The notes below the pieces were generated by a model. The model was not told the origin of the DNA, searched no databases, and saw nothing but the letters and a program-made list of their open reading frames with translations. Position numbers and translations under genes: made by a program. DNA of 64,000 nucleotides, taken from NCBI GenBank assembly GCA_016125185.1, contig WGMG01000006.1, positions 1,364,001 through 1,428,000 on the forward strand, given 5' to 3'. Of this stretch, positions 6,367-50,500 are shown piece after piece; position 1 is the first letter of the stretch, and each line of letters starts with the position of its first letter. The DNA comes from Armatimonadota bacterium. GTDB taxonomy: Bacteria > Armatimonadota > Fimbriimonadia > Fimbriimonadales > Fimbriimonadaceae.

Positions 6367-7347
6367 ATGCTTTCGACCATTTTCGTGACTTCTATTTTAC
6401 AGACGCAGACGGGTCAAAGTCCGTCGCTCCAAGTTGTGGGAAACAAAATAAACGTCACGATCGGCAAAAAGATGGAGTCTGTCGATGCCACCGTCGATCC
6501 GTCGAAAGAAGCTCCCGCCGACCACGTCGCCTACCGGCGTGACAAGATGTGGGCGGTGTGGGACAGCCGAGGACTGACCGTTCGCAATGGCGAAAAAGTC
6601 TTCTCCACCAAACTTGGCGACATCGCCGTTTCGCCTCGCGCGTTTGCTCGCGAAGATATCCTCAAGACGCTCGATCTTTTCAAAGCCAAGCAGCGAACCA
6701 AGGACTGCGATTCGCTGAGCGGGTCCGTCCGCATCGGCACCAAGTGCTACTTTCTTCCCCGCTGGACTCAAAAAGACGGCACGACCTGGCTGGAAGCTCT
6801 CATTGTCGTCGATTTCGCCGACGAAACCCTCAAGCCCAAATTCCTGGGGCGGTTCATGGGTTTCAGCACTGCCAACCAAAAGATCGACGACAAGATGTTC
6901 ACCGTCAAGGACCAGCTCTCGATCGTGACCAAGCAGGGCGACACATGGGGCCTTAGTTCCTTCAATGCCGACCAGACGACCTTCGACTTCAACCCACTTG
7001 GCTCGAACTTAGTCTCCTACTATCGAGGCGGATACTTCCTGGAAACTACCAGCTACGGAACCAGCATCGTAGGGCAGATCGACCTCGCGAGCGGTTTACG
7101 CAAGAACCTGTTTGAGACTCGGGCAAAGAACGTTGAGCTTTCGGACGGAAGTTATCTCGCCATCCTGCGAAGCAAGGACAATACGGTCATCAAGAACCTG
7201 AAAACCGGTGGCCAAGTGATGCACGCTGCAAACGCGTACGTGGAACCGCTCGATAACTACGTGTTGGTGTGGACCAAAAACACTCGGACCACCGCGTGGC
7301 TGTATGAGCCAACGCGATGGACCGCGATTGCAACCGGAGCGAACTAA
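6367..7347 (+). CDS. Hypothetical secreted protein, beta-rich
   Basis: 326 residues from the ATG at 6367; the first 18 residues (MLSTIFVTSILQTQTGQS) resemble a short signal peptide. The body reads as repeating beta strands with many Lys, Asp and Thr residues, compatible with a beta-propeller or sandwich, but no motif is recognised. A longer in-frame start at 6310 would lose the signal sequence. A TACAAT box lies at 6340-6345 on this strand. Its stop overlaps the last codons of the convergent sigma-factor gene by four bases. Confidence 0.65.
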   Translation: MLSTIFVTSILQTQTGQSPSLQVVGNKINVTIGKKMESVDATVDPSKEAPADHVAYRRDKMWAVWDSRGLTVRNGEKVFSTKLGDIAVSPRAFAREDILKTLDLFKAKQRTKDCDSLSGSVRIGTKCYFLPRWTQKDGTTWLEALIVVDFADETLKPKFLGRFMGFSTANQKIDDKMFTVKDQLSIVTKQGDTWGLSSFNADQTTFDFNPLGSNLVSYYRGGYFLETTSYGTSIVGQIDLASGLRKNLFETRAKNVELSDGSYLAILRSKDNTVIKNLKTGGQVMHAANAYVEPLDNYVLVWTKNTRTTAWLYEPTRWTAIATGAN

Positions 7348-8618
7348 GCCGCCTTCGGCGTCGGTGTGGCCAGCGATTTCTCGGCGTGAGCCAAGACTTG
7401 GCGGCTGGTCTTTCCATGATGCGGGCAGACCGCGTTGCCGACGAGAATTTGGACGGCCCCGGTCGAGCCGTATCGACCAGAAACCCAGTTCTGCAGGCTA
7501 TCGAACAAGCGGTCCTTGACCACCTGAACATTCTTGCCGCCGCTGGGCAGGATGATTGCGTAGCCGTGCTCTCCGTATCGAGCTACGACGTCGAGACGTC
7601 GTAGGTTCTCGCGGAAGAAGTCGGCCGCGTCGGCCATAAAGTCGAGAATCGACTGCTCGCCGTAGAATCGTCGCAGACCTTCGAGCCCGGTGAACTGAAC
7701 CAGCACCACCGCCACCTCGGTCTTGTCGTGCGAAGCTCGGTGAAGCTCCTCTTCGACTCGGCTTCGGAAGTAGGCCTCCGTGTACGCGCCGCTGTTACCG
7801 TCGATGATGTCGTTGTCGGCCTGAAGGTCGGCGCCGCGAAGCATTCGATCCTTTCGCTCTTCCGAGGTCAGAATCTTGCGAAGCTTCGACAGGCTCTGCC
7901 GCAGAATGTGCGACACGTAGTTGCACGAAATGCCGAGCCGCGAGGCGATTTCCGTCTGGCTGAGCGCCTCGAAGTGGAACAGGGAGAGAACTTCCTTTTC
8001 CAAATCTCGGAGCTGAGACATGGCGTCTTCCAACACCACTCGATCCTCGACCGAGAGCTGCTCAGGCGAAAACTGGGCGGCGTCGATCTTATCGACTTCG
8101 CTCTCGCTCTCGTCGTCGGCGTCGTTCATGCTATCCAGCGAGCCAATGCGCAGAAGGTCTTGCGTCACGATGACTTCGTGCACCGAGCTTTCGCTCACGC
8201 CGAGGTTATCGGCGATCTCTCGTTCGGTCGGTACACGTCCAAGTTCGGTCTGCAGGGCTGCCGCCGCCTTATTGACGCGGTGGCGAAGCTCCTGAAGCCA
8301 AGCAGGTTGTCGGATCGTTTGCGATTTGTCGCGTAAAAAGTGCTTAATTTCTCCCGCAACCAAATAGGTTGCGTACGTATTAAACCGAACTCCTGCCGTC
8401 GCGTCGTATTTGGCCAGCGCGTTGAGAAGACCGATGTACCCTACCTGGACCAGATCCTCGAAGGCTTCGATTCCGGAGAACTTTCGGGCCGTCCTTTCGA
8501 CGAGACCCGAGTAGGTCACCATGATCATGTCCTTGAGTTCTGGCCTGGGATCTTCGAGATATCGAAGAACCAGGTTCTCGGACTCCAAATTCATATTTTG
8601 TTGCGTTTGTAAGCTCAT
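7344..8618 (-). CDS. Group-3 sigma-70 factor fused to a degenerate GGDEF-like domain
   Basis: About 424 residues. The first 260 are a SigB/SigF/WhiG-type sigma factor: region 2 (FEDLVQVGYIGLLNAL, FNTYATYLVAGEIKHFLRDK), region 3 (PTEREIADNLGVSE) and a region 4 helix-turn-helix (LSQTEIASRLGISCNYVS). About residues 285-415 resemble a GGDEF domain (LDVVARYGEHGYAIILP), but the catalytic GGDEF is replaced by GEHGY and the metal/substrate Asp motif is absent, so cyclase activity is unlikely. ATG at 8618 follows AAGGG; an in-frame GTG at 8654 is an alternative. The domain could sense a nucleotide or partner and tune the sigma activity (inference). Confidence 0.88.
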   Translation of the reverse strand: MSLQTQQNMNLESENLVLRYLEDPRPELKDMIMVTYSGLVERTARKFSGIEAFEDLVQVGYIGLLNALAKYDATAGVRFNTYATYLVAGEIKHFLRDKSQTIRQPAWLQELRHRVNKAAAALQTELGRVPTEREIADNLGVSESSVHEVIVTQDLLRIGSLDSMNDADDESESEVDKIDAAQFSPEQLSVEDRVVLEDAMSQLRDLEKEVLSLFHFEALSQTEIASRLGISCNYVSHILRQSLSKLRKILTSEERKDRMLRGADLQADNDIIDGNSGAYTEAYFRSRVEEELHRASHDKTEVAVVLVQFTGLEGLRRFYGEQSILDFMADAADFFRENLRRLDVVARYGEHGYAIILPSGGKNVQVVKDRLFDSLQNWVSGRYGSTGAVQILVGNAVCPHHGKTSRQVLAHAEKSLATPTPKAA

Positions 8619-8677
8619 TCCCTTGATTCCAAGTTCATGGGGCGCCTCTTGCACCCCTCCAATCCATCCGAGTTCGA

Positions 8678-9883
8678 TTACTTGATGTTGTTCACGATGC
8701 TAAAGATCGGGACCATAATCGAGATGGCAATAAATCCGACAACACACCCGAGGAAGATGATCAGCAGAGGCTCGATCAGCGAGGTCAGGCCCTTGACGGT
8801 CTGCTCCACTTCCTGATCGTAAAACTCGCCAACTTTGACCAACATCTCGGGGAGTCGTCCAGACTCCTCACCGACGTCGATCATCGTCGTCACCATGGTC
8901 GGAAACAGGCCCGACGCGGTCAGCGGCACGGAAAGCTTGTTACCTTCCTTCAGGCTGGCGCGGGTCGTGTCGATGGCTTGCGCCAACACCAAGTTCCCGA
9001 GTGTCTCACCGACAATTTCCAAGCTTCGCATCATCGGAACGCCCGAGTTGATCAGCGTGCCAAAGGTTCGCGAGAACCGAGCAACACTCATCTTGAGCGC
9101 CAGGTCGCCAATGACCGGAATGCGTAGCTTGAGAAAATCCCATCGATAGCGGCCTTGAGGCGTCTTCACCCATTGCTTGAGGCCGATAAAGGCGCCTACA
9201 AACATGAGGATGACGGCCCACCAGTAGGCCTGCATAAAGTCGCCGATCGCAAAGAGAAACTTCGTGACGGTCGGCATTGGTGCGTTCATGCCTGCGAAGA
9301 TGTCCTTAAACTTCGGAAGCACGAACGTAAAGAGGGCGAAAAGCATGATCTGGGAGAAGACCAAGACGAGGACCGGATAGGTCATCGCGCTCTTGATCTT
9401 GCCGCGAACTTCGGCCTCGTACTCAAGGAACTGGGCCAGTCGGTCCAGAATGAGGTCCAAGATACCGCCGAGTTCGGCCGCCTTGATCATGTTCACATAA
9501 AGTCGAGAAAAGACGTCTGGGTGCTTGGCCATCGCCTCGTTCAGCGTCATACCGCCCTTCACGTCGACGGTGATGATTTCGAGGGTTGACTTCAGAGCCG
9601 GGTCCTTGCACTGGCCCTGCAGAATGTCCAGACATCGGAGAATCGGAATACCGGCGTCGATCATCGTAGCGAACTGTCGCGAGAACACGACGAGTGCCTT
9701 CGGCTTGATCTTCTTTTTGCCACGGGCTCCGGCCTTAGCCGCCTTGATCGGCTTGACCTCGGCGACGTGAAACTCTTGCTCACGCAGCTTGGCGGCTACG
9801 CTCTGCTCGGATTCACCTTCCATGGTCGACTGAACGACCCTTCCCGAGGCGGTGTCGATTGCTTTATATGCGTACAAAGGCAT
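8678..9883 (-). CDS. pilC: Type II secretion/type IV pilus inner-membrane protein (PilC/GspF)
   Basis: 401 residues beginning MPLYAYKAIDTASGR, the classic GspF/PilC N-terminus, with two T2SSF domains (about 70-195 and 275-395) each ending in membrane segments, three in all. PilC is the platform protein that passes the force of the PilB/PilT ATPases to the growing pilin fibre. No other pilus genes are in the window, so the rest must be elsewhere. GGAG lies upstream of the ATG, with a TATAGGAT-like -10 further out. Confidence 0.95.
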   Translation of the reverse strand: MPLYAYKAIDTASGRVVQSTMEGESEQSVAAKLREQEFHVAEVKPIKAAKAGARGKKKIKPKALVVFSRQFATMIDAGIPILRCLDILQGQCKDPALKSTLEIITVDVKGGMTLNEAMAKHPDVFSRLYVNMIKAAELGGILDLILDRLAQFLEYEAEVRGKIKSAMTYPVLVLVFSQIMLFALFTFVLPKFKDIFAGMNAPMPTVTKFLFAIGDFMQAYWWAVILMFVGAFIGLKQWVKTPQGRYRWDFLKLRIPVIGDLALKMSVARFSRTFGTLINSGVPMMRSLEIVGETLGNLVLAQAIDTTRASLKEGNKLSVPLTASGLFPTMVTTMIDVGEESGRLPEMLVKVGEFYDQEVEQTVKGLTSLIEPLLIIFLGCVVGFIAISIMVPIFSIVNNIK

Positions 9884-10088
9884 TAGTAAGACTCCATCGA
9901 CGCTCCGATACCGGGATTGTCGAATCCTATAGTTCAGTTATCGGAAGAATTGCTGGCAGGACACCAGAAAAATCGCTAGGTTTTTTAGCGTCCATAAGGC
10001 CCAAAATGCATCGCTTTAGGTTCTAGACCGGAAAACCTGAAGTATCGTGAAAGGTTGATAGCAGGTGCATCGCCGCGACCTATGGTTG

Positions 10089-39358: not shown

Positions 39359-40261
39359 CTAACCATAAACGAGCTTTCGAAATCTCTCTCGAGCTTCCGA
39401 AAGCTTTTCTAGCATTGCTAGAATCTCTCTTGTGTGCGATGGCTGAGCAATCCTACGCAAGGACTCGCGCTTGTTTACGATAAACTCGAGATGTTCCTTA
39501 AACGTTCGGCGAACTCGACTTGAAAATAGAAGGTTTTCCACATCAGCAAGCAACACAAATTCGCCGGACTCTCGATCACCCAGTTTTAACCAGATCGCGT
39601 CGCTTCCCCCATCCTTTATCAAGATTTCAAGGCCATTGCCTGAGATAGAGCGTATACCTAGGTCGCTTTCAAGGCTTATTGTCGGTGCTTCTCCAAATGC
39701 TGCGGCAATAAGCTCGGCAAGTTCGCCTTGGGGCCCCATGCGTTCGCGGACTATCTCAACCAGCTCCGGCCCAACCTCCTCAAGGCGTCGAAACAAGATA
39801 TTCATCGACGGCCCATCCACGAACTCTTCGTTGTCGAAGAGTTCCGTCATCAATCGAAGATAAATGGAACTAGTATTGGCCCATGGTCGACCAAGTCCCT
39901 TGAAGACGCTTGGATCCGAGCACTTCTTTAGAACCAGTCGATTTTCAACCAACCATTCTAAATATTCTTCCAAACTAGAAGACACATTTCTTCCACCAAG
40001 TTCAATTTGCAGGGTACGAATGTCCTTGAAAGAGGTATGTCGTTTTACTTCCAAGGGAGCAAATTCAAGGACGTCTACATAGCCAGTCGGCGAAAAATCT
40101 CTGTCGCGAATGAATTTTAGCCGACAAAAGTCTCCCTCGATGATCATACTTGGCCAATTATTTTCAGGATGGCGCTCTAATACTGCCCAGAACTTAAATA
40201 TCCTAGGCAAGAATGCCTCAATTCGATTGAGCGGTGAAGAAGACTCAACTATTTCGGTCAT
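39359..40261 (-). CDS. Candidate immunity protein of the orphan RHS toxin
   Basis: 300 residues, mixed alpha/beta, with no motif I recognise. Its ATG overlaps the stop of the RHS C-terminal fragment (ATGA), the arrangement typical of toxin-immunity pairs, which is the only basis for the proposed role. Sequence is visibly more AT-rich than the core genes. It lies inside the repeat-bracketed segment. Confidence 0.6.
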   Translation of the reverse strand: MTEIVESSSPLNRIEAFLPRIFKFWAVLERHPENNWPSMIIEGDFCRLKFIRDRDFSPTGYVDVLEFAPLEVKRHTSFKDIRTLQIELGGRNVSSSLEEYLEWLVENRLVLKKCSDPSVFKGLGRPWANTSSIYLRLMTELFDNEEFVDGPSMNILFRRLEEVGPELVEIVRERMGPQGELAELIAAAFGEAPTISLESDLGIRSISGNGLEILIKDGGSDAIWLKLGDRESGEFVLLADVENLLFSSRVRRTFKEHLEFIVNKRESLRRIAQPSHTREILAMLEKLSEARERFRKLVYG

Positions 40262-41088
40262 GGTTTGTATAAGTATCTACCTCCACGTCCAACTTTATAG
40301 CCTTTGGAGAGAAGATATCGGAGTTCTTTACCAAGGTATCCGTACATATCACCAATCTCTTCAGTCTTCACCGGATCAGCAAGAACAAACTTGGCTCCTC
40401 TTGCGATAGCCCGATCAAGGAATTTTTGGTTGGCAGCCCATGCGGTACCTTCATCCACCATTTTTTTCCAAACTGCATCCGGAACAGTAAATACCTTGCC
40501 ACCTATTTTTTCGGCAACCTGAGTGTATCGACCGACTCTCCCAAGAACCACAATATCTTCGGCCTTCTTAGTGATCGACGCTAAACGTGTTGTAGCCCCA
40601 AGAACCTTAAATGCCTTCGACGCTGCCGCAGCTTGTTTCACTTTGACAACGAATTTTGTTGCCGCAACAACCTTTGAAATCTTGTCTATTGCCCCTATCT
40701 GCGCGGCCTGGATAAGGCACTCTTTGGAAACATGGGCGCAGATCACCGCGCCGTCGTAGCCAGGCTGATGCTTCGCCCACTCATTCTCTTTTCCGGTAAA
40801 GACATAGGCTATGGCGCACAAACCGGTCTTCGCCCCATCCCTAAAGCCGTCGGCTGTAAATAGGAATCCGCAAATCTCGACATCAGTGCCGTAAGGGTCC
40901 ACCATCATCACCGGATTGCCTTCGCAATATGTATAAGTGTTTGCCCCGCCCTCATACCCAATGGGATCGCGACTGAGCCACCGACCCGACCCTGGATCGT
41001 AAAACCGGTGGAGGCAATAATACATATTTGAGAGGCCGTCGCCGTAGTATCCAAACTGCCCTTTGTACTGGAATGGCTGATTGAGCAA
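40258..41088 (-). CDS. Orphan RHS C-terminal fragment with toxin-like tip
   Basis: 276 residues from a TTG at 41088. The first 70 are the end of an RHS core (LHRFYDPGSGRWLSRDPIGYEGGAN, then NPVMMVDPYG), followed by a variable about 200-residue tip with no recognised catalytic motif. The RHS frame runs on upstream without a start (YDAYGRPVW) to about 41175, where it breaks exactly at the 310-bp repeat. The core sequence differs from the full RHS protein at 47501, so it came from another RHS gene. Known Rhs loci keep such displaced toxin modules as a recombination reserve. Confidence 0.72.
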   Translation of the reverse strand: MLNQPFQYKGQFGYYGDGLSNMYYCLHRFYDPGSGRWLSRDPIGYEGGANTYTYCEGNPVMMVDPYGTDVEICGFLFTADGFRDGAKTGLCAIAYVFTGKENEWAKHQPGYDGAVICAHVSKECLIQAAQIGAIDKISKVVAATKFVVKVKQAAAASKAFKVLGATTRLASITKKAEDIVVLGRVGRYTQVAEKIGGKVFTVPDAVWKKMVDEGTAWAANQKFLDRAIARGAKFVLADPVKTEEIGDMYGYLGKELRYLLSKGYKVGRGGRYLYKP

Positions 41089-41177
41089 CTTTGTACTTCC
41101 AGCCGAACCATCATTTGAATTTGAGTTCGTCCAAACGGGCCGACCGTAGGCATCGTAAAGGAGCCATTGAGAGGTGG

Positions 41178-41487
41178 CGTCGGCGGTGAAGGCCGTGGGT
41201 CAGGTGGTGAAGTTCGACGCTCCGCCCCAGAGTGTGACAACGATCGTGTTGCCAAAGAGTTGAGGCGGTCAGGCGTCCGAGCAGTGATCGAAAAAGTCGC
41301 TTGGGAGCTTCTTAGCCACCAGCCAGGTTTGAATTCTGGCCCTCTTCATCGCCTGATGTTCCGAGCTTTGCATCTCGTTTTCCAGAAGGACGATTCGATC
41401 GATCAGATCAAACTTGTACGGCAAGTCCGGCACTAACTGATCGATTAGACGCTGACGATCCGGCTCAATGGGCAGGCGTTGGGGACC
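41178..41487. repeat. 310-bp direct repeat, right copy
   Basis: Counterpart of 38998-39307. Its first 87 bases are an orphaned GH44 tail (SAVKAVGQVVKFDAPP to LPKS and stop at about 41264); the remainder is the 3' part of the intact 41269-41904 gene. Confidence 0.9.
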
Positions 41488-41904
41488 CGAACCCAGGTAG
41501 CGAGCACATTGAAGGTTATACAAATCTCGAACACCATCGAACTTTTGGAACCTTTGCAGGGAAGCGTCGGAAAAAGCTCTCAACGGTCGCATCCTCTCGA
41601 TGTACGATGCCACTTCGGTTCTGATGTATTCGATACTCTCATGCAAGTCCTTATTGGGCCATGACGAACTGATTCCTTGCCGAATTGCGTAAGTGTTCAA
41701 CATGCCAATGTCATCCGGGAAAAGGGAGACATTCGTGAACATGGTTAAAGCTGTGGACCCCACCTCCATGCGAAGTCGCTGAACGTAAAGGCCGACATAG
41801 TAGCCTGGGCTGAGCCCTAAATAAGTAGTCGGACCCTTTGCAACCGATCCAGCGGGCATCGCTTCTATGCCAAATCTATGAGAAAACTTCCTGTCGTACT
41901 TCAT
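41269..41904 (-). CDS. Unknown protein, intact copy of duplicated gene
   Basis: 211 residues. Opening MKYDRKFSHRFGIEAMP, then mixed alpha/beta sequence and a Leu/Arg-rich helical C-terminus (YKFDLIDRIVLLENEMQ). No family recognised. Its start overlaps the stop of the 102-residue gene upstream (ATGA), so they form a two-gene unit. Given its place in the immunity array, an immunity or toxin-linked role is possible but unproven. The 3' end is duplicated at 39089. Confidence 0.65.
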   Translation of the reverse strand: MKYDRKFSHRFGIEAMPAGSVAKGPTTYLGLSPGYYVGLYVQRLRMEVGSTALTMFTNVSLFPDDIGMLNTYAIRQGISSSWPNKDLHESIEYIRTEVASYIERMRPLRAFSDASLQRFQKFDGVRDLYNLQCARYLGSGPQRLPIEPDRQRLIDQLVPDLPYKFDLIDRIVLLENEMQSSEHQAMKRARIQTWLVAKKLPSDFFDHCSDA

Positions 41905-42209
41905 GGTTTGCGGCTTGTTCCTTTATCTCGCGATACCTTTGCAACTTGATAGGCCCTTTTGATTTGGTCGTTCAATGGTTGCATCAGGCTCTCATCCATC
42001 TTAAAGTCTTGTATCAGATTGGTGAAGTCCAGGAATATCGTCCATCTTCGCACGAGTTCATCGAAGTCTGTGGAGCTCAGGTCAGGAGGGCAAACGTAAA
42101 ATGTTCCGCTATCGGAGTCGAAAGCGACTTCGACTTCGACGGGATCGAGTCGATCTGGTACTCGCTTGACGGCAAGCCTGGGACGGTACTTTGCGGTAAT
42201 CATTTTCAT
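41901..42209 (-). CDS. Unknown small protein coupled to 41269-41904
   Basis: 102 residues beginning MKMITAKYRPRLAVKRVPD, with a short strand-rich half (VEVAFDSDSGTFYVCPPD) and a helical C-terminus. Stop overlaps the next start by four bases. No family recognised; the pairing resembles a toxin-antitoxin or immunity operon but no motif supports that. Confidence 0.6.
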   Translation of the reverse strand: MKMITAKYRPRLAVKRVPDRLDPVEVEVAFDSDSGTFYVCPPDLSSTDFDELVRRWTIFLDFTNLIQDFKMDESLMQPLNDQIKRAYQVAKVSRDKGTSRKP

Positions 42210-42327
42210 TTCAAGCCTTGATTTAGACAGTATTTAATCTAGGGTCTCCTAAATGTGATTGCAAAGAAGTGGCATGCCTAGAGATGCCCATCTGTTAACC
42301 GAAGCACTGACTGTCCCATCTACCAGC

Positions 42328-42710
42328 CTATTCGACACTTTGCGCAAGCCTGACGATCGTGCCAGTCCTGACCGATATTTCGACCACGGTGAATCGATAG
42401 TCTGAAGGCTTCGAACCCTGCGGATCGTTGTAAACGACCCAGAGATCGGCCTCTTCACAGCTTTTCATGTGCCGGTGGCATATTTCTTCATCCACGTCTG
42501 CTCGGTTAGAACGGCTTTGGAGATGGCCAGCGCGGTTTCCTCCTTCGTCACAAAGCCGTCTTGAGGGATTTGGCCGAGCCGATCTCCCTCCAAATAGTGA
42601 TGAAGCTGGGCGGGCACTTGATCGTGGTCCTGCTGACCGACGCAATAGCGCCACCCAACGGCGCTAAGGACGGCGAGATTGACGAGGACGATGAGTAGTT
42701 TATGCTTCAT
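42328..42710 (-). pseudogene. Frameshifted NTF2-fold immunity protein
   Basis: Reading from ATG 42710, MKHKLLIVLVNLAVL and DGFVTKEETALAISKAVL match the N-terminal half of NTF2-fold immunity proteins, but the frame ends at a TGA at about 42465. The C-terminal half (CEEADLWVVYNDPQG, YRFTVVEISVRTG) continues in another frame to a stop at 42328. The parts align with the interrupted gene at 45682-45990 plus 42767-42829. A one-base shift near 42468 explains the break; a sequencing error is the alternative. Confidence 0.7.
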
Positions 42711-42766
42711 TTCGGACTCTCGCAGGCGCGGGCACTCTATTATCCTTCGACCGCTAGAGTGAACGG

Positions 42767-42829
42767 CTACGGAAGTAAGCCGAACTCTTCTACACCACCG
42801 TTGAGGGGGTTGATCTTCACAAAGTACCT
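42767..42829 (-). pseudogene. 3' end of an immunity gene cut by the IS element
   Basis: Encodes RYFVKINPLNGGVEEFGLLP and stop, the missing C-terminus of the gene that starts at 45990. It is in frame with the 5' part once the inserted element and one copy of the flanking repeat are removed. Confidence 0.75.
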
Positions 42830-42841
42830 CTCCTCAAGAGG
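42830..42841. repeat. Direct repeat at left end of the IS element
   Basis: CTCCTCAAGAGG, identical to 45682-45693. It overlaps the outer bases of the terminal inverted repeat and probably contains the target-site duplication (IS1595 elements are known to make 8-bp duplications). Confidence 0.6.
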
Positions 42842-42862
42842 CAACAATATACTTCACACACC
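42838..42862 (+). repeat. Left terminal inverted repeat
   Basis: 25 bases starting GAGGCAACAATATAC and ending CACACC; its inverted partner at 45660-45684 differs at three positions. Confidence 0.75.
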
Positions 42863-42879
42863 CAGGGAAGGTGTAAAGC

Positions 42880-43749
42880 GTGATCGCTGAAAAACCAAAA
42901 TTCATGCCCTGGGTTTATAATTCGTACAAGTTATGGAGCCTGTACGAGATGCTTATTGAATTCCACGCGGATGCGCTTATAAACGCGATCAAAACTCTGC
43001 AAAGCAACGCGACTCATGCTCAAAGACACGCTGAACAGGAAGCGATAGGACAAGTTCACTTCGATGACACTGTTCGCACAAAGTTGGTTGGTAACTTGGA
43101 CACCTTAGCCGAGCAATTTCGCAATGCAGGAATGCCATTTTCCGCTAAGGGGTTATTACGTGCAAAAGAGGAAATTGAACAGCCTAGATGCACATTTGCG
43201 TTGGCATCCCGCGTCCTTGAGGAATGTATTGCCAGGATGGAGGATGACGCCGGATTAAGTACGTTTTGGTATATGGACGCTGAGAGCGCAGATTGGTTCA
43301 ATACCGATCCTGTAGCGTATTTTGGTGAAAGGGTTCACGACAAACTTCAACAGGCGAGGTTTGATATGCAAGAGGCAATTTTGTGCTTTGCTTTTGATCG
43401 CTACTCCGCGTCTATGGTGCATCTCACCAAAGTCACGGAATTTGCTTTGAGGAGATTTGCCACAAAAACCCTTGGAGCAAGCGCACTGGTTGGTACAAAC
43501 TTTCGTCCCGCAAACTGGAATACGCTGTCGGGCCAAATAGGGCGGCATGTTCGATCCATGCCCACAACAACGGCTAAAGACTTGAAGAAAAAGGATGCGA
43601 TGCTCGAAGCATTGAATCGGTTTGATACCGTTAGATTGATTCGCAATAGAGCCAGTCACGCGGACAAAGACCAGTTCACGGCGAAAGAGGCAAAGGACTA
43701 CTTAAAATCACTGCCTATATTCCTTCAACAAGTGATTGACGTTATCTGA
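42880..43749 (+). CDS. HEPN-like passenger protein
   Basis: 289 residues from GTG 42880, preceded by AAGGTG and starting only 18 bases inside the element's terminal repeat. All-helical sequence; near the C-terminus, RLIRNRASHADK gives the R-x4-H signature of HEPN domains, many of which are RNases in toxin-antitoxin, abortive-infection or CRISPR systems. The first 170 residues show no known motif. A defence or addiction role is inferred. Overlaps the convergent gene by eight bases. Confidence 0.7.
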   Translation: MIAEKPKFMPWVYNSYKLWSLYEMLIEFHADALINAIKTLQSNATHAQRHAEQEAIGQVHFDDTVRTKLVGNLDTLAEQFRNAGMPFSAKGLLRAKEEIEQPRCTFALASRVLEECIARMEDDAGLSTFWYMDAESADWFNTDPVAYFGERVHDKLQQARFDMQEAILCFAFDRYSASMVHLTKVTEFALRRFATKTLGASALVGTNFRPANWNTLSGQIGRHVRSMPTTTAKDLKKKDAMLEALNRFDTVRLIRNRASHADKDQFTAKEAKDYLKSLPIFLQQVIDVI

Positions 43750-44254
43750 CGGCTTCTGTACTTACCTTCCAATCCAGTTTTGGGTTAGCACCCTCATAGA
43801 CGTAAGCCACGCCGTCACCGCGCATTTCCTCAACCTTTCCGATAATTAGTCTCTTGTCTATCGTGGCTGAGAGGAAAGCATGAAAGGTTCTTGTCTCGCC
43901 TGCCTTTAGATTACGAAATGTGTCGATCAAATCAGGATGCTCACCTTTAATCGGCTCATTACCGTTGAGCGGCTGGAATACGGTGAAGACACCAGTAAGT
44001 TCAACCTTTGTGGCGTCTACTTTTGAAGTATTCGTAATCGTCCCTTCAACTTCATATCTTCCCCGCAAGTAGCCAACAGTTCCCCGCACTTCGATGTCTT
44101 CTTTCTTGACCGTCGCAATGGGTGCCGCTGGCACGGCATTTCGGCTCTTTACGATCCAAACCGCATTGCCCAGCACAGACACAACGAGAAGGGCAATCAG
44201 TACCATTCTCTGCTTGCTGAGAGTATTGACACGAGTATCGGCTGGTACGTCCAT
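43742..44254 (-). CDS. Membrane-anchored FxLYD-like passenger protein
   Basis: 170 residues: a single N-terminal membrane helix (MVLIALLVVSVLGNAVWIV), then an immunoglobulin-like beta domain (VEGTITNTSKVDATKVELTGVF, FRNLKAGETRTFHAFL) of the FxLYD/DUF3426 type. GGAGAAG precedes the ATG. Divergent from the XRE gene with a 12-base gap. Role unknown. Confidence 0.65.
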   Translation of the reverse strand: MDVPADTRVNTLSKQRMVLIALLVVSVLGNAVWIVKSRNAVPAAPIATVKKEDIEVRGTVGYLRGRYEVEGTITNTSKVDATKVELTGVFTVFQPLNGNEPIKGEHPDLIDTFRNLKAGETRTFHAFLSATIDKRLIIGKVEEMRGDGVAYVYEGANPKLDWKVSTEAVR

Positions 44255-44266
44255 ACGCTTCTCCAG

Positions 44267-44548
44267 ATGCTACCAAGATCGGTGCAACTACATAGGCAAC
44301 CATACCCTGTATTGTCCTCGCCTGTCCAGAACTCGGAATACGATGATTTCCGCACTCTGCTTATTGAAGCAAGGGTGAAATCTGGCATAAGCCAACGTGA
44401 GCTTTGCAAGCGATTGAGCAAACCGCCGACCTACGTTACGAAGATCGAAAGCGGAGTCAGGCGCATTGATACCGTTGAGACAATCGCGTTCCTGAGAGAA
44501 GTCGGTGCTGATCCGCTCAAGTTCTTCTCAACGCTCTTGGAAGACTAA
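44267..44548 (+). CDS. XRE-family helix-turn-helix regulator
   Basis: 93 residues. LLIEARVKSGISQRELCKRL followed by TYVTKIESGVRRID is a Cro/CI-type HTH. No sensor domain. The first 25 residues are not conserved-looking and the true start may be later. As the only regulator in the element it could control the HEPN gene or the transposase (inference). Confidence 0.8.
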   Translation: MLPRSVQLHRQPYPVLSSPVQNSEYDDFRTLLIEARVKSGISQRELCKRLSKPPTYVTKIESGVRRIDTVETIAFLREVGADPLKFFSTLLED

Positions 44549-44691
44549 TCAGCGGCGGGTTTAGCCTTTCCGCTTTTTGGTTTTCCGGCCTTTACGATTC
44601 TTTCCGTTAGCTTTTTGAACGCCTGAAACTCTGCGCTTTGGTTTTGGTCCTCGGGTTGATTTCCTGATCCATTTGTTTTTGATTTTTTCAT
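44545..44691 (-). CDS. Small companion protein of the transposase
   Basis: 48 residues (MKKSKTNGSGNQPE, then FKKLTERIVKAGK and a Lys-rich tail). Its ATG overlaps the transposase stop (ATGA), so it is translationally coupled to it. Small Lys-rich ORFs with an F-x-x-L pattern are often seen after ISXO2-like transposases; the function is unknown. Confidence 0.55.
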   Translation of the reverse strand: MKKSKTNGSGNQPEDQNQSAEFQAFKKLTERIVKAGKPKSGKAKPAAD

Positions 44692-45635
44692 GCGATTGCT
44701 CCGGTGGCTAACACCTTTCCGGTTAGCTCTTTGTAGGGCAGCTTCTTTCCAACGATACATGAAACAGCTTTCAAGAAACGATCAGAATCCGTTCCTTTGC
44801 GTTCATTGAATCGGAAAACCTGTTCACCGACATATCGGAAAAGGTGCGTTGGCTCCACGCTTACATACGTTCCGCTGATCGTTCTTTTGAGAAGTGACCA
44901 GAAGTTCTCAATACCGTTAGTGTGGACGTTTCCGCGCACATACTCTTGTGCGTGGTGAATGACTTCGTGTTCGTAGTGATACTTCATGAAGTCGTATCCA
45001 TTGTGCTGATCTGTGTAGAGTTTTGATCCTCGCATAATGCTTTTCGTCAGCAGTTTCGTTACGGTTGGCCGATCCGGTTTCTGAATGACTTCTGCTTTCA
45101 CGCTTCCACCACGTTCCAGCATTCCTAGAACTGTTGTCTTTCCAAACGAACCACCAAGACCGCCGCGTTGTTCTCGTCGCCATTGGTGCATGTTCTTTGC
45201 CTTGCCGCCGATATATGTTTCGTCGGCCTCAATTTCACCGGACAGCTTATCAATCGTTCCGTTGTGAAGAGCTTCGCGGATGCGATGAAGCATGAACCAC
45301 GCCGTTTTCTGTGTGACGCCTAATGATCGGTGGATTTCATAAGAACTGATTCCATTCTTTGCGTTGGCAATAAGCCAAATCGCCGCAAGCCATTTATCGA
45401 GCGAGATTGGCGAGTCCTCAAAGATGGTTCCGATCTTGACCGAGAACTGCTTCTTGCAAGCCTTGCATTTCCAAATTCTGCGCGTTGAAAGGAACGAATG
45501 TTCTTTGCCGCCGCAGTGAGGACAAATAACATCATCGCCCCATCGAAGCGACTTTACAAACTCGAACGCTATCTGATCGTCCGAGAAATACCGCATCGCC
45601 TCCATCAGCGTCTTTGGCAGGTTCGTTGAATTCAT
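44688..45635 (-). CDS. IS1595 family (ISXO2-like) transposase
   Basis: 315 residues. An N-terminal zinc ribbon (CPHCGGKEH and CKACKKQF) and the ISXO2 DDE nuclease follow: EADETYIGGKAKN (first Asp), LYTDQHNGYDF (second Asp), and HTNGIENFWSLLKR (N/E region). Length is normal and no frameshift is seen, so the element may be active. Gene is followed by the coupled 48-residue ORF. Confidence 0.95.
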   Translation of the reverse strand: MNSTNLPKTLMEAMRYFSDDQIAFEFVKSLRWGDDVICPHCGGKEHSFLSTRRIWKCKACKKQFSVKIGTIFEDSPISLDKWLAAIWLIANAKNGISSYEIHRSLGVTQKTAWFMLHRIREALHNGTIDKLSGEIEADETYIGGKAKNMHQWRREQRGGLGGSFGKTTVLGMLERGGSVKAEVIQKPDRPTVTKLLTKSIMRGSKLYTDQHNGYDFMKYHYEHEVIHHAQEYVRGNVHTNGIENFWSLLKRTISGTYVSVEPTHLFRYVGEQVFRFNERKGTDSDRFLKAVSCIVGKKLPYKELTGKVLATGAIA

Positions 45636-45659
45636 TTGAACCTAGTATACCCTGAATTA

Positions 45660-45684
45660 GGTGTGTCATGTATATTATTGCCTC
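45660..45684 (-). repeat. Right terminal inverted repeat
   Basis: Read on the minus strand it starts GAGGCAATAATATAC and ends CACACC, pairing with 42838-42862 at 22 of 25 positions. Confidence 0.75.
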
Positions 45685-45693
45685 CTCAAGAGG
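45682..45693. repeat. Direct repeat at right end of the IS element
   Basis: CTCCTCAAGAGG, identical to 42830-42841 and in the same orientation. Removing one copy with the element restores the immunity frame. Confidence 0.6.
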
Positions 45694-45990
45694 GGTTGCT
45701 GTACCCAACTTTGGATTCTTGGTATAGCCAATCCAATATACGCCGACCTTCTCAACATACACCGTCTTTTCGTCGACACTGAAGAGGTATCGCAAGTGTA
45801 GTCGAGCTATATCGAGGGCTTGAAGCTTGGTTCGTACCAAACCATCAACGTTGGTGACTACACGGTGCGAGTTTTGCAACCAGTATTCGGTTGGCTTGTC
45901 GATGAGTTTGTCGGACTTTGTCTGGTGGCTGAAGCAGAAGACGAATGCACCGGCAAGACCAACGACCGCCAACAACTTTGTAACTTTCAC
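45682..45990 (-). pseudogene. NTF2-fold immunity gene, 5' part, split by IS1595
   Basis: From GTG 45990, 103 codons encode a signal-like start (MKVTKLLAVVGLAGAFVFCF), the helical VRTKLQALDIARLHLRYLF segment and YWIGYTKNPKLG, then run into the element. Joined to 42767-42829 the product is 123 residues and aligns with the frameshifted homologue at 42328-42710. It is of the NTF2-fold immunity type that protects against polymorphic toxins. Confidence 0.75.
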
Positions 45991-46045
45991 AGGTCATTTT
46001 AGACGTTGGCAAAGTCGCCTGTACAACCCCCGAGCTTACGCGGTG

Positions 46046-46354
46046 CTAAGCCTCGAGGGTGAGATCCCTTTCCAGTTCGGCTGGAACATCCCAATACGCT
46101 GACATGACGGTAATAAAGTTCTTGAGCGAAATTGTCTCCGTGTTCGAAACATCAAAGACATTGGCCAGACAGCTTTCCATGTCAAGCGCTCTGTCCCACT
46201 CTAGACTCCGGGGACCTAGGGCCAAGGTAAGGTGTTTCGTCTCTTGCTTTCCACTTCCTCGCGGGAACTTGACACCGTCCATATCCAAGATGTCTTTGGG
46301 CTCAAATCCCCACACACCGCCAATCCTGGTGCTATCGTCGCCTTCCAGTTTCAT
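46046..46354 (-). CDS. Candidate immunity protein (module B)
   Basis: 102 residues, acidic, beginning MKLEGDDSTRIGGVWGFEP. No family recognised. Its ATG overlaps the TGA of a short upstream frame ending FANIELDS (46351-46407), the same coupling seen for the toxin-immunity pair at 40258. The role is inferred from position. Confidence 0.55.
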   Translation of the reverse strand: MKLEGDDSTRIGGVWGFEPKDILDMDGVKFPRGSGKQETKHLTLALGPRSLEWDRALDMESCLANVFDVSNTETISLKNFITVMSAYWDVPAELERDLTLEA

Positions 46355-46407
46355 GAATCCAATTCGATATTAGCGAACGCCGCATCGTACCTTCTTGTTC
46401 CCACGTA
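46351..46407 (-). pseudogene. Toxin-tail remnant, module B
   Basis: An 18-codon open tail (YVGTRRYDAAFANIELDS) ending in TGA overlapped by the next ATG. It emerges from the 29-base hairpin repeat at 46404-46432. Interpretation as the end of a lost RHS toxin is inference. Confidence 0.4.
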
Positions 46408-46432
46408 TCCTCTCAGTCCCGAAATGCGGGGC
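46404..46432. repeat. 29-bp hairpin repeat, copy 1
   Basis: Shares 27 of 29 bases with 46982-47010. It contains a GTCCCG/CGGGGC stem and precedes module B on the minus strand. Confidence 0.7.
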
Positions 46433-46451
46433 CATACCATAGTCACAGTTG

Positions 46452-46475
46452 CATAACTCACCATGGTGAGTTATG
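46452..46475. repeat. 24-bp perfect palindrome
   Basis: CATAACTCACCA followed by its exact reverse complement; it includes the stop codon of the 46458-46877 gene. No T tract follows on either strand. Confidence 0.6.
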
Positions 46476-46877
46476 TAGCATTTTCTCCTCATCCTCGTCA
46501 GGAGGATGATTCGCGACAATAAGCTTCGGGCAACCTTCGAGACGCAGCTCGCCAAAGTCGAGCACTTCAAGGGGCATAGGATTTCCAATATCATAACAAT
46601 TAACCATCCAGGGCCGCAAATCGCCACTGGATAACGACATTAAGTCGGTAAGGCGAATTTCAATAACCACCCACTTATCTGGATAACTGCTATCTTTCAC
46701 GTGAAAGCGTCGTTTGCACAGCAAGTAGACTCGTTCAGTATTTTGCCACGATTCGTCGGTACTGCGAACTGCGTAATTTGGTACCTCATCACCTAAATTG
46801 GTCCAGGCGCGCATCACCTCGCATTCCCATAGGTACTGAGGAAGACCATCTGGCCATAAAGAGAAACGAGCTATCAT
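46458..46877 (-). CDS. Candidate immunity protein (module A)
   Basis: 139 residues (MIARFSLWPDGLPQYLWECE), with a central EVVI-type strand pattern (DKWVVIEIRLTDLMSL) and an acidic C-terminus. No named family recognised. Its ATG overlaps the TGA of a short toxin-like tail upstream, which suggests it was the immunity partner of a toxin now lost. Confidence 0.6.
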   Translation of the reverse strand: MIARFSLWPDGLPQYLWECEVMRAWTNLGDEVPNYAVRSTDESWQNTERVYLLCKRRFHVKDSSYPDKWVVIEIRLTDLMSLSSGDLRPWMVNCYDIGNPMPLEVLDFGELRLEGCPKLIVANHPPDEDEEKMLHNSPW

Positions 46878-46990
46878 TTTGACGGGTCTGTTGTCGGAGG
46901 CGGAATTAGCGGTCTCCCATCAACAGGAGCGACATGGAACTTCAATCTTAACGAGGGCCTCATCATGCCATTATGGATCTGCGTATCCTC
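46874..46990 (-). pseudogene. Toxin-tail remnant, module A
   Basis: A 38-codon open frame without a proper start, ending KFHVAPVDGRPLIPPP and TTDPSK, then TGA overlapping the next ATG. It starts at the 29-base hairpin repeat. Probably the C-terminal stub of an RHS-type toxin (inference from position and coupling). Confidence 0.45.
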
Positions 46991-47010
46991 TCAGCCCCGA
47001 AACGCGGGGC
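46982..47010. repeat. 29-bp hairpin repeat, copy 2
   Basis: Partner of 46404-46432; contains a perfect GCCCCG/CGGGGC stem with a five-base loop. It marks the upstream boundary of module A. The rest of the 46878-47112 gap shows nothing else recognisable. Confidence 0.7.
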
Positions 47011-47112
47011 AGATTGTCAGGTCTGGTCCGCCGAAGCATTAAGGCGAAGGCTGGAACGCGGGCCACACCAAATCATGGCTACCCAGCTCACGCAAGTGAC
47101 TCGTCAATCACC

Positions 47113-47511
47113 CTATTGGCCGCCGGAACCGCTTCCTAGCTTATCAAAGTAAGGACCACCAGCAATACCGTTCTTCTGCATGTACATAAGATATTCACCA
47201 TTGGGTAAAAAGAGCTTGAAAAGCCTATCCTTGTCCGAAATACTACTCCAGCGCTTACCTTGAAGCTTGGGGTTCATGTGGATTACAACGACTTCGGCGT
47301 TTTTCTTGATCGTCTGAACAGACCGGTAGGCAGGAGTATCAGGCTTCCAGTGAAAGTTAAGAATATCCTTCCAACAACTCAGCTTCCCGGTTTGTTTAGC
47401 GTACTCTACTACTACTGCGTATGCTGAATCGCACACCATAGAAGCTATCGAACCTCGACCAGGGTCTTGATTACATTTAATCAAAATTAATACAAGTCCG
47501 TTAGCCACCAT
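47113..47511 (-). CDS. Candidate immunity protein of the RHS toxin
   Basis: About 132 residues from ATG 47511, with GGAGGT upstream, starting 11 bases inside the RHS 3' end; an in-frame ATG at 47550 is possible. Content is mixed alpha/beta (VVVIHMNPKLQGKRW, LFLPNGEYLMYMQKNG). No family recognised; the assignment as immunity rests on its place directly after the toxin tip. Confidence 0.65.
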   Translation of the reverse strand: MVANGLVLILIKCNQDPGRGSIASMVCDSAYAVVVEYAKQTGKLSCWKDILNFHWKPDTPAYRSVQTIKKNAEVVVIHMNPKLQGKRWSSISDKDRLFKLFLPNGEYLMYMQKNGIAGGPYFDKLGSGSGGQ

Positions 47512-50500
47512 TATATTTTTTATACCTCCTTTGGAGTTCTCTTTGTTCATTTATTACTTGATAAAGTGGGCTACCTCTATATTTAGGCATTAGTTCATTA
47601 CACCTTTTTATGGTTTTATCACATGCCCTAACTTCCTTCTCATTCTTTGAAAACTTGCTTCCCATGTCATCCACATGCTGTAGCTCATGAGTGAGGATGA
47701 GTGCGAGTTCCAATTCACGCTTACCTAAAACAATGTCGTTTCCGCTATCTTCCAGATTCTTAAAGTAGGTTCGAGCTATCGTGATCCTCTTCTTGCCTTC
47801 ACTCGGAACTTCCGCGGCAGCCCGTGACGGCTTCCCATTATTATCTAAAAAGGGCTCCCCGGATTCATTTTTCACCATACTCATTTTATCGTCATCCTCA
47901 ATAAATAGCCCTGAATCTGGGTCCGGATCATTGAGCAGCTTTAGTAAGGCATCCGCATCATCTGCATACCCTTCTTCGCGAAGTTTACCGGCTACTTCCT
48001 GAACTCTCTTGCCCTCAGTTGAGTCAGGAAGAATTTTCTCTTTTAGTCCTGTAGAATCAACCGCCTTGAGCGGGTTATTCTTAGCATATCGATACCAGTT
48101 CCGGCCGTCTCGAACTGGATCCCTCGAAATAAATCGCCCCGTCTCGGGGTCGTAATAGCGGTGTCCGAGAAGCTTGAGGCCGGATTCGGCGTCTTCTTGG
48201 TAGCCGAAGTTCGCGGCGAATCCCTTTTGGGTGAGAGAACTTCCGACATGCGTCGCGTTGCCGAAGGCATCATAGGTTGCGGTGTCCGTTACCGTACCGC
48301 TAGCCGTCATCGCTTTCATCGAGCCGAGGCGGTCCGTGTGAACGAAGCTCGTCGTGCTTCCCGTCTTCTCAGAGATGCCGGGGACCATCGAGGCAAGACC
48401 GTCGGAGAGCACCGGAGCGGTCACGCCTATGCCGTCACGCTTGTACGTCCGACTTCCGAACGGTCCACTTTTGGCGGTTCGTGTTCCCAGGCCATTATAC
48501 GTGTAGTTTGTCGCGGTAGTCCCATACACGGTCGCGCTCGTCATCCGGTCGTCGTAGTCCCATGTGAAGTTGCGCGTGTAGAGGCCAGTTACGGAGGTCA
48601 TGCGGCCGGCATTGTCCCAGTTGTAGTAAGCCGTACCGTTGGACTTCGCCAAAGTTTGGAGCTTGTCGGCCGCATCGTACGTGTACGTGTCAACGTTGAT
48701 CCCCGACGTTTTCGTCAGGCGGTTGCCGTTGTGGTCGTAGGTGTACCCATAGCTATAGCCACCGCTTTGACTCTCCGTCTTGAGCTGGTCGATATCATCA
48801 TAGGTGTAACTTGTCGAGACCGAGTTCACCACCTTTGACATTAGGTTGTTGACGTAGTCGTAGTTGTACGTTTCCTGATGGAATACGCCCGAAGCGTTCG
48901 AGTGGGCGATGTAGTTCAGTCGGTCGTTGCCATCGTAGTCATAGCTGGTGCTTGTGGCACCGTCGCTCTTGGTTCTAAGTCGCCCGTACGAGTCATAGCC
49001 AAACGTCGTCGACACGCCATCCGCGCTCTTCGAGATGCCGGTCAGCTTCTCGTTGGTGTACGTGTAGAGGGTGTCGTTCCCGCCTTCGGTGAGCTTGGTG
49101 CGACGGTTCCACTGGTCGTAAACGTAGTCCATCGTGCCCTGCGGAGTCACGAGCTGAGTCACGTTGTCGCCGTTGTCGTAAGTCCAACTCGACGTACCGG
49201 TGCTGTCGACCATGTTCGTCTGGCGACCATCGTAATCGTACGCAAGGGTCGTCGGCGTGCCGGTGGGGTACGTGACCGTCGTCAGATTGTCGGTGTCATC
49301 GTAGGCATACTGGATCGTTTGGCTCAGACCGTTGATGCGACGGGTCTGGTTGCCATTTCCGTCGAATTTATACTGCTCGTTCGTACCATCGGCAAACAGA
49401 ATCTGCTTCAGTTCTCCACGATACGTGTAGTAGTAGTACCGGTAGTACCCGTTGCCATTCTGAACGGACGTCAGGTTGCCGTCGGCGTCGAAATTGTAGT
49501 GTTCAGTGTCGCCTCGGGCATTGTCGACCGATGTCACTCGCCCAATGCCATCTCGGTGCAATGTCGTCGTGCGACTAAGAGGATCGGTGGCAGTCGAAAT
49601 GTCGCCGATGGCATTCATCACGACCGAGGCGGTCGCCGAGTCGAACCGCGTCGTGCTTGTTAGCCGCCCCCAATCGTCGTAATAGAAGTTGGAGGTGCGG
49701 TTGCGGTTGTCCGTGACGGAAATCGGCTTGCCCAGCAACTTTCCGGTTCCGTAAGTGATCGTCGCGGAGCCATCGGGTGTCACCACGTTGTTCGGAAGAT
49801 ACGCAGAGTTATAGTTGATCTGAGTCGTGACACCTTCCGCACTCGCGGTCGCCATCGAACCATCGCTGTTGTAGGTGTAGGTCCCCAACGTGTGGCTATT
49901 GCCATCCACCACGCTCGTCAGCGTGCCCGGAATCGTCCCGCGATTGTAGTACGTCGTGACGCCCCGAGCATCCTTGGCCGTAACAATGTCATTCCAGGAG
50001 TTGTAGGTCGCCTCGTTGTCCTTACCCGCCGCATATTGACGCGGATCCTGGGTGCTCAGTACGTTGGCAAACGCATCGTAGATGTAACGGTACACATGGC
50101 CGCGGGCGTCGGTGTACTGGCTGACGTTGTAGTACTGGTCGTACTTGTAGCCGGTGATGAAGTTCTCTTGGTCCTTGATCTGAGTCAGGAGGCCGCCATC
50201 GTAGTACTCGGTCGTTTTGACTCCGCTTGGCTCAACGAACTCGGTCGACCCACTGTTGTAGTTGTAGGTGTAAACCGGATTGTTCGAGTTGCCGTTGCCG
50301 TAAACCGGGAGCTTGAAGGTCTTGAGGCGATTGGTGTCGTAGGTCTGCACCCACTGCCGCCCGAGGACGTCGGTTTCCGTTAGAATCGGGGCGCAAGAGG
50401 AGTAGTCGGCTGCTGTGTATCCATACGTAAACGTTTCGGTCGGCCGCGTTCCGCTGAGGGTCGGATAAGTAATGCCGCCCATCGTGATGCTGTGGTCGGT

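Follow-up and report, generated by a model that had tools for sequence, protein, structure and literature searches.

Among the closest described systems to the gene reported here is RsiG–WhiG, in which c-di-GMP arms the anti-sigma factor RsiG and so controls the sigma factor WhiG and, in Rubrobacter, type IV pilus genes via FliA/WhiG-type promoters (PMC8325347). RsiG has been reported from Actinobacteria only, and it forms with WhiG what has been described as the sole sigma/anti-sigma pair on which c-di-GMP acts (PMC8325347). An earlier note on the present locus, made from its sequence alone, had drawn the comparison with Streptomyces WhiG under c-di-GMP control through the separate anti-sigma RsiG. 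The second relevant group consists of GGDEF domains that bind c-di-GMP at their allosteric I-site. In PleD a c-di-GMP dimer is bound there by the RxxD motif (R359, D362) and R390, all from one domain, and by R313 contributed by a neighboring domain (PMC7288161, PMC8041772). Degenerate GGDEF domains with an intact RxxD, for example PopA, are established c-di-GMP receptors (PMC12564702), and in Campylobacter lineages without active cyclases degenerate GGDEF domains are found in which the I-sites are degenerate too (PMC9239204).

We analyzed a stretch of 64,000 nucleotides, referred to as the window, from a member of the Fimbriimonas family (Armatimonadota), and find that it encodes a sigma factor continuing into a degenerate GGDEF domain (Table 1). 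The open reading frame runs from an ATG at 8618 to a stop at 7344 (424 codons, 424 aa), with an alternative GTG start at 8654 that would give 436 codons. The nearest named relatives are from a Fimbriimonas MAG, at 87% identity, and from an Armatimonadetes MAG, at 85%. Pfam recognizes Sigma70_r2 (residues 35–99), Sigma70_r3 (110–162) and Sigma70_r4 (199–248), all above their cut-offs, followed after a short linker by GGDEF (PF00990, residues 273–416, E 1.8e-12; score 47.7 bits, cut-off 23.8). Membership of the sigma-70 family is clear (TIGR02937, 93.4 against 42.9 bits). The best subfamily match is TIGR02980 (SigB/SigF/SigG) with 180.2 bits, and FliA/WhiG is the next-closest named class; as the TIGR02980 score lies below the curated cut-off of 234 bits, we call the factor only SigB/WhiG-like. 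An AlphaFold2 model of residues 255–424, built on a three-sequence alignment (pLDDT 79.9), matches WspR (Foldseek E 1.6e-8) and PleD (4.7e-8) as well as DgcB, GcbC and DgcR, several of the matched structures being c-di-GMP complexes. The C-terminal domain thus has a GGDEF fold, as predicted by the model. A full-length model, also from three sequences, was poor (pLDDT 54) and gives no arrangement of the domains. The earlier note had claimed a fusion of a sigma factor to a degenerate GGDEF domain and a C-terminal region folding like GGDEF. Both claims held, the former by the reading frame, Pfam and full-length relatives throughout the phylum, and the latter by the structure prediction that it had proposed as a check; the strand, which it had left unstated, proves to be the minus strand.

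Table 1. Features of the fusion locus and of a second region of the window (positions in the window; residues of the fusion protein).
Feature	Position	Strand	Basis or remark
Sigma factor–degenerate GGDEF fusion gene	7344..8618	-	Open frame, Pfam, phylum-wide relatives
Sigma-70 regions 2, 3, 4 (residues 35-248)	7875..8516	-	Pfam above cut-off
Degenerate GGDEF domain (residues 273-416)	7371..7802	-	Pfam PF00990; modelled fold like PleD/WspR
R294, secondary I-site Arg (in trans) by alignment	7737..7739	-	Equivalent to PleD R313 (WspR R195); 114/115
RRLD (R340-D343), primary c-di-GMP I-site RxxD by alignment	7590..7601	-	Aligns with PleD R359/D362
GEHGY, degenerate GG(D/E)EF active-site motif	7560..7574	-	No intact motif among 115 homologues
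R370, third I-site Arg by alignment	7509..7511	-	Equivalent to PleD R390; 108/113
pilC, type IV pilus / T2SS inner-membrane platform protein	8678..9883	-	Pfam T2SSF, E 2e-62
TCCGATAA, FliA/WhiG-type -10-like element	9938..9945	-	62 bp upstream of pilC start
IS1595-type transposase	44688-45635		Within low-GC island
Rhs-repeat gene, 1457 aa	47501-51874	-	

A hallmark of the domain is the loss of its active site. RYGEHGY (residues 347–353) occupies the position of RxGGDEF, so that both G/D/E catalytic positions are lost, and the positions of the metal-binding Asp (308) and the GTP-binding Asn (316) hold Q and R, respectively. The motif is degenerate in all 87 fusions aligned first and, in the wider set, intact in none of 115. 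Among the 144 columns of the domain the active-site columns rank 16–128 for conservation, and those contacting GTP or metal rank 47–128, with the buried F alone being kept. As none of the requirements for a diguanylate cyclase is met (motif, metal Asp, GTP Asn/Asp), the domain cannot be one, which is an inference from sequence alone.

The domain is, on the other hand, best conserved at its I-site. R340 and D343 are the domain's only two invariant columns, with RxxD present in 87/87 sequences of the first alignment and in 114 of the 115 homologues of the wider set that have these columns. Divergent fusions that had not been used to spot the pattern carry RxxD in every complete sequence except one (L207), which has QxxD. 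The four I-site residues R340, D343, R294 and R370 rank 1, 2, 5 and 8 of 144, and the chance of four random columns all ranking that high is 4e-6, a rough figure as columns are not independent. The reverse order is seen in 65 motif-intact GGDEF controls of the same phylum, drawn from 13 genomes in a sample that favors high-scoring domains, in which active-site columns rank 1–19 and I-site columns 29–51. Among the 12 controls without the motif, three (L140, L142, L148) look like fusions themselves and three depart only slightly from the motif; the remaining six are degenerate non-fusion domains, and RxxD is kept in just one of them. RxxD is common in GGDEF domains (40/65 motif-intact controls), and its presence in a single protein proves little; the case for I-site function rests on its invariance across the fusions and not on its mere presence. 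We conclude from the alignment, without binding data, that the allosteric c-di-GMP site has been retained in full across the phylum, with RxxD and both further arginines, and the domain fulfils the sequence criteria of a PopA-like effector (A-site lost, RxxD kept).

These results bear on further points of the earlier note. Its claim that catalytic residues are missing at the GGDEF active-site position held, and the survey of fused homologues for binding-site residues that it had suggested gave RxxD in 114/115 and an intact catalytic motif in 0/115. It had missed the intact RxxD I-site formed by RRLD, five residues ahead of GEHGY. It had left the choice between nucleotide sensing and a vestigial sensor, of which we favor sensing, since the I-site is the best-conserved part of a domain whose active site has decayed; binding itself has not been demonstrated. 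Finally, confinement of the fusion to one genome, which would have refuted the idea, was looked for and not found, as the fusion is conserved far beyond its source genome (see below).

As a separate observation, R287-x-x-E290-E291-x-x-R294 is nearly invariant in the fusions (residues 287–295; window 7734–7760, minus strand). R287, E290 and E291 lie outside the published I-site and are far rarer in motif-intact controls (22/65, 16/65 and 27/65, respectively).

A search of 291 Armatimonadota genomes gave full-length fusion matches in all families of the order and in many other families. A profile built from 31 members for a wider search added fusions in families f4–f11, f15, f18, f20–f23, f28, f30 and f44, and gave sigma-only matches in families f24, f25, f27, f39–f43 and f45; the fusion is found in most families of Armatimonadota. 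In a tree of the sigma part, a branch (SH-aLRT 98) separates 32 fused sequences from 20 unfused SigB-type factors, and some of the latter come from genomes that also bear the fusion. A single origin of the fusion followed by losses is the simplest reading. A plasmid search returned only unfused sigma matches among its 20 best, none covering 80% of the query. We found no report of a sigma–GGDEF fusion in the open-access literature searched, which leaves out most subscription journals, and only Armatimonadota were surveyed by sequence. Domain-architecture databases may already list the fusion without any study of it.

The gene directly upstream of the fusion is pilC, ending 59 bp before the sigma ATG. 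This arrangement, on the same strand, recurs in 80 of 115 fusion loci from many families, and in the other 35 pilC is not adjacent. In ten of these 35 loci that were examined the neighbors are unrelated to each other, as are the upstream genes in the pilC-less families f12, f13 and f19. In eight fusion-less genomes of the same genus the best PilC is just 41–44% identical to that of the window, whereas two fusion-bearing genomes have both this 41–44% paralogue and a 75–79% orthologue. The fusion-less genomes hold the paralogue alone, so that the fusion and its own pilC have been lost together in these eight genomes.

Within 200 bp upstream of pilC, the FliA/WhiG -10 element GCCGATAA (at most one mismatch) was found in 23 of 63 loci, compared with 4.5 +/- 1.7 in shuffled sequence, usually 45–70 bp before the start codon, and CCGACAA was found in 14 loci where 0.5 were expected. 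The FliA/WhiG regulon promoter sought was TAAA-N15-GCCGATAA; a complete TAAA-N16-GCCGATAA is present in L195 and L185 only (family f11). SigB-type (GGGTAT) and TATAAT elements, also considered as the pilC promoter, are not enriched upstream of pilC. From the enrichment of the -10 element we infer that the pilC–sigma operon may be transcribed by a factor of the FliA/WhiG class, probably the fusion itself. In the source genome no FliA/WhiG-type element was noticed in the expected position before other pilin, PilB/T ATPase or PilM genes, and a pilus regulon beyond pilC is therefore unsupported.

Some other features of these regions deserve mention. AACCTAAAG recurs upstream of the putative pilC promoter, at about 9990 on the minus strand of the window and also in L010, L014–L017 and L091, and in L014–L016 it is arranged as an almost perfect inverted repeat, CTTTAGGTTTGA...TCAAACCTAAAG. 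CCTAAAG is found upstream of pilC in nine loci against 0.4 expected. The recurring element could be an operator or a terminator. The source genome (G000) has an unusually large pilin-like set, with 68 matches to prepilin N-methylation and six long ones to PilB/PilT-type ATPases.

Other GGDEF proteins besides the fusion are encoded in 11/11 fusion-bearing genomes examined. Two reduced genomes of 1.5 Mb from the same family (G132 and G133, with fusions L050 and L100) have only two GGDEF domains, one with an intact GGEEF motif and that of the fusion. With a single PilC match and two to PilZ in addition, the set could amount to a minimal c-di-GMP circuit. PilZ matches were absent from the two fusion-less genomes tested (G080, G088), and two or three were present in three fusion-bearing ones. 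No stand-alone RsbW-like anti-sigma factor was seen in the source genome, where all PF13581 matches lie in frames of at least 390 aa.

Elsewhere in the window, positions 40000–48000 form a low-GC island (0.48 against 0.56–0.57 around it) at the C-terminal end of the Rhs-repeat gene, and this island also holds several small ORFs without Pfam match. It appears to be a horizontally acquired Rhs toxin-tip and immunity region.

The fold, the degenerate active site, the conserved I-site, the single fused clade and the pilC linkage are established by computation. On balance we favor reading the fusion as a SigB/WhiG-class alternative sigma factor that carries a c-di-GMP receptor within itself, although no binding, structural or expression data exist. 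Type IV pili would be its most likely target, by inference only, and a regulon beyond pilC has no support. In the mechanism we propose, a c-di-GMP dimer would contact R340, D343 and R370 in one fusion protein and R294 in another, so that two sigma proteins become cross-linked in the way that the GGDEF domains of PleD or DgcR are cross-linked, and this would alter whether the sigma regions can bind RNA polymerase. In the simplest version, high c-di-GMP would keep the sigma factor dimeric and inactive and a drop in c-di-GMP would free it, so that the domain would serve as a built-in anti-sigma factor; the freed sigma factor would then transcribe its own pilC–sigma operon from the FliA/WhiG-type promoter, giving positive feedback. 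Without experimental data, we can only infer as possibilities that c-di-GMP binds, that R294 and RxxD mediate dimerization, that access to RNA polymerase is controlled and that the factor regulates its own gene. We are guessing at the direction of control, by analogy with I-site inhibition and with RsiG–WhiG, and at the wider regulon. A bolder reading, which we would as readily doubt as believe, is that the whole phylum uses one-component, c-di-GMP-gated sigma factors that need no anti-sigma factor, having evolved independently of RsiG–WhiG and yet arriving, like it, at a WhiG-class sigma factor with a link to type IV pili.

The alternative that we take most seriously is that the GGDEF domain no longer binds nucleotide and has become a module for dimerization or protein contact, acting for example as an intramolecular inhibitor or as a dock for a partner; RxxD would then persist because it makes a structural contact to RNA polymerase or to the sigma regions. 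Action through protein contacts is possible for degenerate GGDEF domains. That R287, E290 and E291 are as conserved as R294 points to a family-specific role for the helix on which they lie, perhaps as an interface, and this alternative remains possible. It is weakened by two points, namely that a merely structural role would hardly select for precisely those four residues by which PleD binds c-di-GMP, and that RxxD has been lost from most of the other degenerate GGDEF domains in the phylum. The I-site could also pair the fusion with one active cyclase in a mixed GGDEF pair held by shared c-di-GMP, in which case the sigma factor would report a local cyclase rather than the global pool. I-site c-di-GMP dimers do bridge two GGDEF domains (PMC8041772, PMC7288161), and the two reduced genomes keep exactly one motif-intact GGDEF protein beside the fusion, but R294 and RxxD are together sufficient for a homodimer and the genes seen beside the fusion in the window include no diguanylate cyclase, and we regard such docking as unlikely.

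Less credible still is that the former active site binds and senses GTP or some other nucleotide, for which the degenerate GGDEF domain of Caulobacter CC3396, which binds GTP (cited in PMC7288161), is a precedent; this would be hard to reconcile with the lack of conservation at every column contacting GTP or metal (buried F excepted). As for an accidental fusion, by recent read-through or as a functionless vestige, the motif does look degenerate in a single sequence, but the one fused clade, the retention across the phylum and the invariant positions in an otherwise diverse domain all but exclude it, and we consider it refuted by this conservation.

Compared with SigB/SigF/SigG and their RsbW/SpoIIAB anti-sigma factors, the fusion is alike in its sigma regions, which are closest to TIGR02980 and SigB, and differs in falling below the TIGR02980 cut-off, in its extra C-terminal domain and in the absence of any stand-alone RsbW-like protein found in the source genome. 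With the product-inhibited cyclases PleD, WspR and DgcR it shares the fold and the four I-site residues (RxxD, R390 and R313* in PleD). These are, however, active cyclases that use the I-site for feedback, whereas in the fusion it would serve as the output. PopA, PelD and similar degenerate-GGDEF effectors have likewise lost the A-site and kept the RxxD I-site (PMC12564702, PMC7288161), but their outputs are protein targeting or exopolysaccharide synthesis, and no sigma factor is among those described in these two papers. If our reading is true, the fusion would be the most direct known path from c-di-GMP to promoter choice, and would offer a first handle on regulation in the little-studied phylum Armatimonadota. 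The likeness to RsiG–WhiG lies in the WhiG/SigB-class sigma factor, with c-di-GMP control of the fusion being inferred, and in the link to type IV pili. The receptors, on the other hand, are different: RsiG is a separate coiled-coil anti-sigma factor with the motif E(X)3S(X)2R(X)3Q(X)3D, which is absent from all 117 sequences of the set, and the fusion has a built-in GGDEF I-site domain. As the two receptors are structurally unrelated, the solutions look convergent, and the fusion would, if confirmed, represent a second and structurally unrelated wiring of c-di-GMP to a WhiG-class sigma factor and type IV pili.
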